NCBI RefSeq assembly: GCF_007997155.1
Contig: NZ_VORT01000008.1
Span: 62,001-126,000, forward strand
From: Aequorivita antarctica
Lineage (GTDB): Bacteria; Bacteroidota; Bacteroidia; Flavobacteriales; Flavobacteriaceae
Reading direction: 5' to 3'
DNA: 64,000 nucleotides
Shown: piece by piece, positions 30,529-32,721 of the stretch
How the letters are laid out: every line of letters starts with the position of its first letter
Position numbering within the stretch: the stretch's first letter is position 1
Notes under the pieces: model-generated
What the model saw: the letters and a program-made list of their open reading frames with translations, nothing else
Database searches by the model: none
What the model was told of the DNA's origin: nothing
Translations under genes and position numbers: made by a program

Positions 30529-30548
30529 TCTTTATTAGTTGTTTGTTT

Positions 30549-30612
30549 TCAGGTCTTGGTTGTCAGGTCTTGGTTTTCAGGTCTTGGTTGTAAGGTCTTG
30601 GTTGTCAGGTCG
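30549..30612. repeat. 14-bp tandem repeat (2 x 7 period)
   Basis: Four copies of TCAGGTCTTGGTTG (one with a T for the last G, one starting TAAGG) and a partial fifth. The last copy runs straight into GTCAGGTCGAGTG, the outer end of the structured repeat at 30604. The same junction occurs at 32058. Confidence 0.85.
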
Positions 30613-30742
30613 AGTGGATTTGAAGGAGCGATAGCGGATTCAAATTTGTATCGAGACCGGGTTGGCGGGTAGTACTTCTAAGTCGTTCTCGATACTTTTT
30701 TTCCCTTCCGCTGCGCTCCAGGAAAAAAACACTCGAACTGAC
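30604..30742. repeat. Facing pair of structured repeats, empty (MITE-like)
   Basis: Left arm 30604-30657: GTCAGGTCGAGTG, a hairpin with ATTTGAA/TTCAAAT stem and GCGATAGC top, then GTATCGAGAC. Right arm 30684-30742 in the other orientation: GTTCTCGATAC, a TTTTTTTCC/GGAAAAAAA hairpin, then CACTCGAACTGAC. The 26-bp spacer has the same length as the spacer of the pair at 32578-32706, and about half its bases match. No gene lies between the arms. Confidence 0.8.
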
Positions 30743-30951
30743 AATGGGTACATTTTTATTCCACTGCGCTTCACAAAAAACACTCGAACTGACAATGGGT
30801 ACATTTTTATTCCACTGCACTTCGCAAAAAACACTCGAACTGACAATGGCTAAATTTTTCTCTTTGGCTATCGCTTCACAGAAAAACACTCGAACTGACA
30901 ATGGCTACATTTTTATTCCACTGCACTTCACAAAAAAACACTCGAACTGAC
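30730..30951. repeat. Tandem array of repeat ends, period about 51-55 bp
   Basis: CACTCGAACTGAC begins at 30730, 30781, 30832, 30887 and 30939 (steps 51, 51, 55, 52). The sequence between is also conserved (ACATTTTTATTCCACTGC, then an A-tract), so this is a tandem amplification of the right-arm unit and not a CRISPR. The short open frames it contains on both strands are by-products of the repetition. From 30952 to 31031 I see only A+T-rich sequence. Confidence 0.85.
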
Positions 30952-31031
30952 TGTGGTCGCTATTAATTATAGATTCGTTAATTTATTATTAATTAATTTA
31001 TTTGATTTTCTATTTCATTTCACTTTACCGA

Positions 31032-31080
31032 ACGATTCACGATTTACGCTTCACTTCTCACGTCTCACTTTTCACGCAAC
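31032..31080. repeat. Heptad repeat, degenerate (ACNNTTC-like)
   Basis: Seven consecutive 7-mers in exact phase: ACGATTC, ACGATTT, ACGCTTC, ACTTCTC, ACGTCTC, ACTTTTC, ACGCAAC. The array ends at the first base of the wzm stop codon (minus strand). It resembles, in reverse complement, the GTGARAC arrays around 43.26 and 43.66 kb. Confidence 0.8.
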
Positions 31081-31925
31081 TACGCACTCATCCGTTCCAC
31101 CAAAATAGGAATTGAGATTCTATAGAACAACAAAGCAATAAAAAACAGCGGTACACTGCAAGCGATAACTATTAAAAAATAGGTTAAATACATGGGGGGC
31201 ATACCTACGGCTAAGTCGCGGGCGGTTAGTATGATTGGAGTAAAGGGGTTTAGTTCCATAACAGTTTTTATTATACCGGTTTTGGGAATTGCATAAACTA
31301 CTGGGGTAACGTACATTAAAAAACCTAGCCCAAAACCAATTAACTGTCCAATGTCTTTATAGAGCATCCCTAAAGGTGTGATTAACAATCCTAGGGTAGT
31401 TCCAAACAACACCCCCCCTAAAATAGCAAGCGGAAATAGCAACAAGCTCCAATGGAAACCTATACCGTAAAAGAAAATAAACACCAGCAACAGCAAAACT
31501 TTTATGGAACTATTGAACAACAACTTATATACTCCTGAAATTATTATAGCTTCTTTAGGAAAGTTTATTTTAGACATAATGCCCTTGGCGCTATTGGTAC
31601 TACTCATTGGGGAGGTAATAGCATCCTTAATAATAGACCACAGCAAGGTACCCGAAAAGGCATACACTGGATAGGGAATGCCCGTATCAGTAACCCGAAT
31701 GGTTCCTGAACTGTTGAGGAAAATCCAAACAAACGCGGTGGTAAGCGGGGTTACAAACGCCCAAATAATACCGAGATAACTTTGGCGGTACTGTGCTTGG
31801 ATGTCTCGTTTTGCCAGTTGGAATGACAAAAATCGTGAGCTGGCAATGTCTGCCAAGCTCTCTTTCAGCATCTTGCCAATACGGAAATTGTTTTCCTTTT
31901 GATAGACTTTGGTTTCCAGTTCCAT
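31080..31925 (-). CDS. wzm: Polysaccharide ABC exporter, permease subunit
   Basis: The protein has 281 residues. FQLAKRDIQAQYRQSYLGII followed by WAFVTPLTTAFVWIFL is the N-terminal signature of ABC-2 polysaccharide permeases (Wzm/TagG), and about six transmembrane segments follow. The conserved MYVTPVVYAIP with LNPFTPIILTARDLAVG near the C-terminus is also typical. It forms the inner-membrane channel for the ATPase at 29323-30528. It is transcribed first, with a repeat-rich gap of about 550 bp before wzt. Heptad arrays sit on both sides of the gene. Confidence 0.93.
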   Translation of the reverse strand: MELETKVYQKENNFRIGKMLKESLADIASSRFLSFQLAKRDIQAQYRQSYLGIIWAFVTPLTTAFVWIFLNSSGTIRVTDTGIPYPVYAFSGTLLWSIIKDAITSPMSSTNSAKGIMSKINFPKEAIIISGVYKLLFNSSIKVLLLLVFIFFYGIGFHWSLLLFPLAILGGVLFGTTLGLLITPLGMLYKDIGQLIGFGLGFLMYVTPVVYAIPKTGIIKTVMELNPFTPIILTARDLAVGMPPMYLTYFLIVIACSVPLFFIALLFYRISIPILVERMSA

Positions 31926-31988
31926 TTGGTTTGGGGAGGCTTGTTTTTTGTTGGGGCTAAGATAACAATTTTGATTTGAAGATTTCCT

Positions 31989-32058
31989 GATTTGGGATTT
32001 GGGATTTGTTAATTCGGGATTTGGTTGCTGGTTGCTGGTTGTTGGTTGTTGGTTGTTG
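31989..32058. repeat. Heptad repeat changing sequence in phase
   Basis: Ten 7-mers in unbroken phase. GATTTGG occurs twice, then GATTTGT, TAATTCG and GGATTTG, then GTTGCTG twice and GTTGTTG three times. The motif changes along the array while the 7-bp period is kept. It joins directly to GTCAGGTCGAGTG at 32058, the left arm of the GIY-YIG element. Confidence 0.88.
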
Positions 32059-32113
32059 TCAGGTCGAGTGAATTTGAGGGAGGCGATAGCCGAGTTTAAA
32101 TTTGTATCGAGAC
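32058..32113. repeat. Structured repeat, left arm of the GIY-YIG element
   Basis: GTCAGGTCGAGTG, hairpin AATTTGAG...TTTAAATT with inner GGCGATAGCC, then GTATCGAGAC. It ends 1 bp before the GIY-YIG stop codon (32115, minus strand). The facing right arm is at 32452-32510. Confidence 0.8.
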
Positions 32114-32114
32114 C

Positions 32115-32408
32115 CTATTTCTTAAATTTCTTTTTAGCAAGATTCGGCAATAGTTCATATGCTTCATTTATTAAAGCTTCTTTTTTTGCTCGAGACCATT
32201 TCTTGATCTGCTTTTCTGCGGCAATTGCAATTGTTATTTCAGTAAAAGTGCAATAATATGCTAATTCAACAGGCAATCTGGAGGAAGTATAACCGTTTAA
32301 ATGCTTTCTGTGTTGATGATCTTCTAATCGTTGCGTTAAATTGGAAGTAACACCCGTGTAATAAGAACCATCTGAACAGGAAAGGATGTATACGTAATAG
32401 GTTTTCAT
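32115..32408 (-). CDS. Single-domain GIY-YIG nuclease family protein
   Basis: The protein has 97 residues. YYVYILSCSDGSYYTGVTSN is the GIY-YIG core (YVY...YTG), the Arg of NLTQRLEDH is the conserved helix Arg, and AAEKQIKKWSRAKKEALI carries the Glu expected to bind metal. There is no DNA-binding extra domain, as in the small UvrC-N-like orphan proteins common in Bacteroidota. The gene fills the space between two facing structured repeat arms almost completely (1 bp at the stop side, 43 bp at the start side). Two similar arm pairs nearby have no gene. That argues for a mobile cargo, and for no direct role in EPS synthesis. Confidence 0.88.
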   Translation of the reverse strand: MKTYYVYILSCSDGSYYTGVTSNLTQRLEDHQHRKHLNGYTSSRLPVELAYYCTFTEITIAIAAEKQIKKWSRAKKEALINEAYELLPNLAKKKFKK

Positions 32409-32451
32409 ATTATGAAATTATGAAAAAAATTGAAGATTTTCCTGAAAAGCC

Positions 32452-32510
32452 GTTCTCGATACGTTTTTTTCCTTCCGCTTTCGCTACATGAAAAAAACAC
32501 TCGAACTGAC
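32452..32510. repeat. Structured repeat, right arm of the GIY-YIG element
   Basis: GTTCTCGATAC, hairpin TTTTTTTC/GAAAAAAA, then CACTCGAACTGAC, the inverse of the left arm at 32058. A degenerate extra end (ACTCGAAATGA) follows near 32550. The short minus-strand frame over this stretch is a product of the repeats. Confidence 0.8.
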
Positions 32511-32577
32511 ATGAGGTAGATTTTTTTATTTTGCAGTGCTTCCCAAAAAAACTCGAAATGATATTGGGATTATGACT

Positions 32578-32706
32578 GTCAGTTCGAGTGAATTTGAGGG
32601 AGGCGATAGCCGAGCTCAAATTTGTATCGAGACTGGATTGAGGTGTCGTCAGTTAAACACGTTCTCGATACGTCCGCCTCGTGCCTCGGCGAACACTCGA
32701 ACTGAT
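32578..32706. repeat. Facing pair of structured repeats, empty (MITE-like)
   Basis: Left arm 32578-32633 has the full consensus end GTCAGTTCGAGTG, hairpin AATTTGAG/CTCAAATT with inner GGCGATAGCC, and GTATCGAGAC. Right arm 32661-32706 has GTTCTCGATAC, a short GC-rich hairpin (CGCC/GGCG) and CACTCGAACTGAT. The arms are about 27 bp apart with no gene between them. Confidence 0.8.
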
Positions 32707-32721
32707 ATGAGGATATCCTCT

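Follow-up and report, generated by a model that had tools for sequence, protein, structure and literature searches.

In repetitive extragenic palindrome (REP) systems with RAYT enzymes, and in REPINs, the enzymes are HUH proteins of the Y1 type and the repeats carry a GTAG tag. The Ssn family of Neisseria, reportedly described in Nature Communications in 2025, is said to consist of small, site-specific GIY-YIG nucleases that cut single-stranded but not double-stranded DNA, with cognate NTS repeats around the gene and in many copies across the genome; its members reportedly control incoming or recombining DNA and modulate natural transformation. CGTC-tagged REPs are said to include the Neisseria dRS3 repeats and, in the portions of a 2013 survey drawn on here, apparently lack a dedicated transposase; most of their families prefer heterodimers, homodimers being preferred in CGTC-1, the dRS3 family, and those portions of the survey offer no obvious explanation for the heterodimer preference (PMC3733652). 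Here we describe a small GIY-YIG nuclease gene and the hairpin repeats ("arms") that surround it in a 64,000-nucleotide stretch of Aequorivita antarctica (the window; contig NZ_VORT01000008.1, positions 62,001 to 126,000), which is part of contig 65 in a 66-contig, 3.84-Mb genome. Comparison across relatives, covering gene-arm pairing, arm structure, strand asymmetry, active-site conservation and presence or absence at corresponding sites, makes it likely that the gene product is a GIY-YIG endonuclease specific for the arms, and probably for single strands, and that it recognises the arms as sites of its own.

Six full arms form three facing pairs at 30.6-32.7 kb of the window, and the middle pair encloses the nuclease gene. 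This is the layout proposed in an earlier sequence-only reading, made from the letters without database searches. The gene, a single-domain frame of 97 residues at 32115..32408 on the minus strand (open reading frame list and Pfam PF01541), is bordered on its 3' side by a plus-strand arm with a GG/CC basal stem (32057..32114) and on its 5' side by a minus-strand arm with a GT/AC basal stem (32452..32511), both located by pattern matches. Its stop codon abuts one arm and its ATG lies 43 bp from the other, in agreement with the 1-43 bp given in that reading, and the compensated change reported there between apical stems (AATTTGAG/CTCAAATT versus ATTTGAA/TTCAAAT) is real. With two mismatches allowed, the arm head, TGTCAGTTCGAGTG, is found 10 times in the window against 0.19 expected, and the 26-base head plus stem has three against 0.00 expected; the nine-base tail alone is not rare, with 12 matches at one mismatch against 6.4 expected.

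The encoded protein matches the Pfam GIY-YIG family (PF01541) at E=5.6e-15 and has no NCBIfam match. Three Pfam families were found for it at E<=1, of which only GIY-YIG reached the cut-off and none is HUH. Residues Y7, Y17, G19, R27, H31, E65 and N89 are kept in 99-100% of 80 homologs, N89 not being covered in most paralog rows of the alignment, and are the GIY-YIG residues to which catalytic roles are ascribed. The ratio of nonsynonymous to synonymous substitution rates (dN/dS) is 0.03-0.13 against relatives where computable, and the nuclease is evidently under strong purifying selection. The UPF0213 proteins with PDB entries 1zg2 and 1ywl are related to it by sequence (E values of 4.4e-11 and 3.7e-7).

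A scan of 84,980 species genomes turned up 411 relatives, and the loci of the best 79 of these 411 were analysed; their proteins are 61-95% identical and mostly from Flavobacteriaceae, and within this best 79 of 411 the closest named matches of the window nuclease are from Aequorivita. All 79 loci have a head, with one mismatch at most, no farther than 400 bp from the gene, and 66 have heads on both sides. Heads are concentrated around the gene, with 488 of 528 at most 1.5 kb away and 40 farther, and their density falls from 2.17 per kb within 1.5 kb to 0.08 per kb farther out. Neither of the two findings that the sequence-only reading named as speaking against it was obtained. GIY-YIG genes of this group are not rare neighbours of such arms, and arm number is related to gene presence: across 299 family genomes, with carriers defined by a match at E<=1e-28 (n=45), arms occur in 44 of 45 carriers (median 11, range 0 to 63) versus 79 of the 254 others (median 0), in a co-occurrence test made with no kinship correction. 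In the exceptional carrier, G068, the protein is 59% identical and the arm core is the same, with GTTGA or GTTGG in place of TGTCA. These counts support the view that nuclease and arms belong together.

The structure of the arms was counted on 411 distinct arms from 79 of 80 loci, arms from related genomes not being independent. An arm has four parts: a tag, [TC]GTCA, that stays unpaired; a basal stem at the arm's outer end; a core, GAG...CGA; and an apical hairpin, which varies. The letters GTCA of the tag are kept in 396-408 of the 411, preceded by T in 255 and by C in 148, so that TGTC is commoner than CGTC. In the basal stem the outer pair is G-C in 222 arms, C-G in 152, A-T in 7 and T-A in 1, and the next pair is T-A in 341, G-C in 34, A-T in 22 and C-G in 2. 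Standard pairing is found at these two positions in 93% and 97% of arms, versus 47% and 72% with shuffled partners, and with one random arm per locus the values are 94% and 97%. Partners slid along the stem pair in at most 26% of cases, except for one slide of the second pair that reaches 84%, where the neighbouring letter is also A. The apical stem varies in sequence while its pairing is kept, with a score of 6.08 against 1.32 when shuffled. These comparisons argue for selection on arm structure, and more strongly than the sequence-only reading claimed from the apical stem, since a second, basal stem covaries across the 411 arms and does so more strikingly than the apical one. Because the strict arm pattern fixes the letters TCGAGTG and GTATCGAG and leaves free only the tag, the outer basal pairs and the apical stem, those fixed letters are no evidence of conservation. 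By comparison with shorter arms described below, the GAG...CGA core could form tandem G.A pairs.

The mismatches of the apical stem are distributed unequally between the strands. Read on the strand that begins with the tag, they comprise 81 G.T, 8 A.C and 64 others, with G.T in 38 loci and A.C in 2. A G.T on one strand is an A.C on the other, so foldability is maintained on the tag-first strand. This bias is present in both orientations of the arm relative to the gene (49:5 and 33:3), which speaks against one transcript being the functional form.

Of 80 loci, 49 have the gene between nearest arms that face each other, and in every one of these 49 the two arms differ in the two outer basal letters. 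A stricter arm search gave 28 facing gene pairs, all 28 different; the 49 of 49 came from a looser search. Among empty facing units around these genes, 99 of 104 differ in the basal stem, where 35% alike would be expected by chance; these facing-pair counts share ancestry. The gene does not always lie within a unit: at 14 of the 80 loci its nearest arms are turned outward, and 10 of these 14 have a complete unit to either side of the gene. In the remaining 17 the arm directions are mixed or an arm is absent on one side.

Relatives at a greater distance have related repeats. We compared 49 paralog loci with proteins 26-59% identical, a set that leaves out the short loci L018, L023, L173 and L176, contains two overlapping pairs (L171 with L181 and L172 with L180) and includes the long-armed L155. 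A shorter arm form, stem-GAG-N4..7-CGA-stem', lies within 350 bp of the gene in 27 of the 49, at a density of 2.83 per kb near the paralog genes versus 0.11 per kb far from them, and GTCA stands at or before the stem in 48 of 93 distinct short arms. Among more distant genus and order paralogs, none of 24 loci has the long head. Twenty-one loci have neither the long nor the short form, and 6 of these lie close to different hairpins tagged with GTCA, which gave 19 hits near and 5 far; with three other tags the counts were 4 near and 2-6 far. L177 and L182 adjoin a GTCA-TTTCCGCGAAGGCGGAAA hairpin, which resembles Neisseria dRS3. On a protein tree of 96 columns and 125 rows, with many unresolved forks and with L171, L174, L180 and L181 dropped, the arm classes require 7 changes versus 41 when shuffled. 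Arm classes follow the protein tree, and nuclease clades tend to have different, matching arm classes. Many of the paralogous GIY-YIG genes (L013-L036, L155-L183) are flanked by repeats of the CTGAGCCTGTCGAAG / TTCGACTGCGCTCAG type, often as facing pairs with covarying stems.

Farther still, Neisseria gonorrhoeae has a homolog that shares 46.8% identity across 79% of the query; around its gene stand 16 hairpins with a GTCA tag, of which GTCA-TTCCCGCGCAGGCGGGAA is an example. Five other homologs were viewed. Facing repeats stand beside the Methylobacterium, Sinorhizobium and Sphingomonas genes, in the last case with one copy inside an annotated gene end; no facing repeats were seen at the Planktothrix and Radiobacillus homologs, the search at the latter (L224, Bacillota) covering repeats of at least 10 bases in 400-nt flanks. 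The repeats of the three alphaproteobacterial homologs (L220, L221 and L223, from Methylobacterium, Sphingomonas and Sinorhizobium, respectively) are palindromic, and each belongs to another family.

The rest of the window locus consists of two empty units and fragments of arms. Empty unit 1 has a plus-strand left arm of type GG/CC (30603..30658) and a minus-strand right arm of type GT/AC (30685..30743), both by pattern matches. Empty unit 2, located in the same way, is decaying: the outer basal letters of its plus-strand left arm (32577..32634) are unpaired, and its minus-strand right arm (32661..32707) has the tag TATCA. Four truncated right arms follow one another in tandem on the minus strand at 30744..30952 (repeat families D1, D3 and D4), with heads at 30781, 30832, 30887 and 30939 and a period of 51-55; each retains the head and hairpin, and the tail is missing after TGTA or similar. 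L123 holds a comparable head-to-tail array of truncated arms. A decayed head on the minus strand (32548..32562; family D4) lies between the gene unit and empty unit 2. At 30543-30611 a tandem 14-base unit, TTGGTTGTCAGGTC-like (repeat family D2), runs into the first arm and repeats that arm's tag and the first letters of its basal stem, a pattern that slippage copying the arm's 5' edge could leave. In genome G000, the sole arm found away from the gene locus, at C54:278916-278966 (L037, L210), adjoins a decayed second head. Neighbouring frames in the window resemble, by inspection, an ATP-binding cassette (ABC) transporter ATPase and permease of a polysaccharide cluster.

The history of the locus can be followed at two sites in Aequorivita. 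A junction beside a glycosyltransferase was matched in 18 of 23 genomes searched, and 14 were viewed (G001, G003, G013 and G017 are left out, and G002 matched on the glycosyltransferase side only): four have gene plus arms, one has arms only and nine have neither. Another gene occupies this junction in G000, G018 and G022, and the junction frames (L206, L208 and L212) encode about 300 residues in G000 and G022 and a different product of about 180 residues in G018; the junction is possibly a swap site in the polysaccharide cluster. The window's transporter permease was found in 6 of 24 genomes and, within a view of 1.5 kb, has the nuclease gene beside it in two, arms without the gene in two and neither in two. 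In G000, G004, G005, G009 and G012 a single contig holds both sites, some 20-35 kb from each other, so the same gene occupies either end of the cluster in different species. Arm-free versions of the same junction exist, with intergenic DNA too diverged for the edges to be defined. Elsewhere, gene neighbours are common to several genera, and the gene is single-copy in 39 of 45 carrier genomes (E<=1e-28), G051 and G281 having two copies about 1 kb apart; shared neighbours and a single copy point to gain, loss and occasional relocation rather than proliferation. A viral or plasmid origin was rejected: two exact arm patterns had no matches in viral contigs, none of eight viral stretches matching the peptide pattern encodes a relative, and matches in 28 records of a plasmid collection were all below 60% identity.

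From such comparisons we infer cleavage, a cut position, a route of copy spread and a host use. The protein would read the arm on the strand 5'-[TC]GTCA / basal stem / GAG ... CGA / basal stem', with the hairpin in the loop, and would nick it, probably near the unpaired tag, whenever that strand becomes exposed, for example on a lagging strand or in DNA that the cell has taken up. With arms set as facing pairs, each strand shows one arm. Cutting, then repair or annealing at the arms, would account for the tandem half-arms and the empty units, and also for gene and arms being gained and lost at fixed intergenic positions. The host use may be control of incoming or recombining DNA, as is said of Ssn in Neisseria.

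Several observations count against an arm-specific nuclease of this kind. Ten of the 11 heads in the window's own genome lie at this locus, which makes a genome-wide role there doubtful. Arms also occur without the gene: among the 254 genomes lacking it at E<=1e-28, at least one arm is present in 79 and at least five in 34. G216 has 86 arms and no close gene was found there; in G107 and G318, with 18 and 20 arms, the only GIY-YIG frames found are of about 460-600 residues. G035, with 70 heads, has two long GIY-YIG frames and one broken short frame without nearby arms; no intact stand-alone GIY-YIG gene was found in it, and it breaks the rule of unlike pairs, 6 of its 10 facing pairs being alike in the basal stem. 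The short arm form was not found in 22 of the 49 paralog loci, and target-site duplication was not established at the junctions compared, where the intergenic DNA is too diverged. Folding of six single arms as DNA gave z-scores of -0.4 to -4.9, two arm complements gave -0.8 and -2.1, and the energy model favours a TCGA/TCGA register over GAG/CGA; we consider energy folding of single arms less telling than the covariation counts, and not decisive. G035 itself belongs to another family, and 59 full arms were read in 20 of its stretches (L225-L244).

Those same observations bear on other explanations. The sequence-only reading took the locus for an autonomous transposon with derivatives like miniature inverted-repeat transposable elements (MITEs), the nuclease moving the DNA between facing arms and the gene unit serving as master copy. 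Such an element would agree with the gene's position inside a facing pair in 49 of 80 loci, with the 104 empty facing units around these genes, with presence and absence at two corresponding Aequorivita sites and with the paired gene copies of G051 and G281. It is nevertheless unlikely, given a gene that is single-copy in 39 of 45 genomes, neighbours common to several genera, nearest arms that point outward in 14 of 80 loci, the failure to establish target-site duplication at the diverged junctions compared, and the many similar arms of G035, where no intact gene was found; the claim of autonomy in particular is not supported.

If the arms instead had another owner, and the nuclease were a homing-type passenger in pre-existing host repeats, genomes with up to 86 arms and no gene would fit. 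Arms stand, however, at all 79 genes examined, nuclease clades tend to have different, matching arm classes, and in G068 the tag differs where the protein has diverged, all of which leave a passenger highly improbable. It is very unlikely, too, that the arms act as RNA, as a leader, terminator or processing site in transcripts that the protein binds or cuts. The 81 to 8 asymmetry of G.T over A.C fits RNA as well as single-stranded DNA, and the location is intergenic; yet the bias holds in both orientations (49:5 and 33:3), so that one transcript would carry one arm as its complement, empty units also occur in arrays away from the gene, and GIY-YIG domains are known to act on DNA.

An arm-specific nuclease acting on single strands would lead to a wider and more tentative proposal. 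Stand-alone GIY-YIG nucleases might be the missing dedicated enzymes of CGTC-type REPs and form a second, HUH/Y1-independent REP system whose tiny nuclease would recognise [TC]GTCA-tagged hairpins in single-stranded form and disperse them as hetero-pairs, a possibility that we rate as rather less than even. Unlike arms do not make up a perfect palindrome, and on this proposal that would explain why heterodimers are preferred, a point left open in the consulted portions of the 2013 survey. The system described here joins three subjects that are mostly handled separately: the short hairpin repeats dispersed in Bacteroidota genomes, CGTC-tagged REPs, for which those portions report no dedicated enzyme, and small stand-alone GIY-YIG proteins. 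Because covariation outlines the recognition element closely, specificity would be directly testable with oligonucleotides, and the rule of unlike pairs makes a sharp prediction on the survival or spread of such repeats. Nucleases this compact, with hairpin targets that can be read, could also be of use as tools for single-strand DNA.

In the literature surveyed, which comprised titles and abstract openings, no link of GIY-YIG genes to these repeats was found, and a term search of the 2013 survey did not return the word 'GIY' (PMC3733652). Nor were the two-storey arm, its basal covariation or the hetero-pair rule found in those titles and abstract openings, a set that does not extend to the Ssn paper.

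Set beside the described systems, the locus shares features with each. An insertion sequence with MITEs differs in gene number, the gene here not being multi-copy (39 of 45 single-copy). The analogy with REP/RAYT systems and REPINs that the sequence-only reading drew is sound for the layout, with inverted hairpin repeats on either side of a low-copy, mostly single-copy nuclease gene and with empty dimers at other places, and fails for the enzyme, which is a GIY-YIG protein with no HUH/Y1 domain by Pfam; the tag is [TC]GTCA and not GTAG. CGTC-tagged REPs are closer in their repeats, which likewise carry an unpaired tag of the CGTC type on one end of the palindrome, [TC]GTCA in the present case, and, in the portions of the survey drawn on, likewise favour heterodimers (here 99 of 104 empty and 49 of 49 gene units, with only 4 of 10 in G035); the arms here differ in their extra basal stem and core and in having TGTC more often than CGTC. 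By sequence, UPF0213 contributes related small GIY-YIG proteins. The nearest likeness is to the Ssn/NTS systems. If the Neisseria gonorrhoeae homolog is Ssn and its GTCA hairpin is NTS, as we assume, both systems have a small single-domain GIY-YIG protein, with the active site intact here, and in both the gene lies amid its cognate repeats (79 of 79 loci here, and at the Neisseria homolog). They differ in that the arm here is two-storeyed, with a basal stem, a GAG/CGA core and an apical hairpin, whereas the Neisseria hairpin is simple, and in that facing arms here are unlike each other and nearly all copies in the window's own genome are at the gene. On this comparison, the system described here would work in the manner of Ssn/NTS, a kind to which it most likely belongs as a divergent member.

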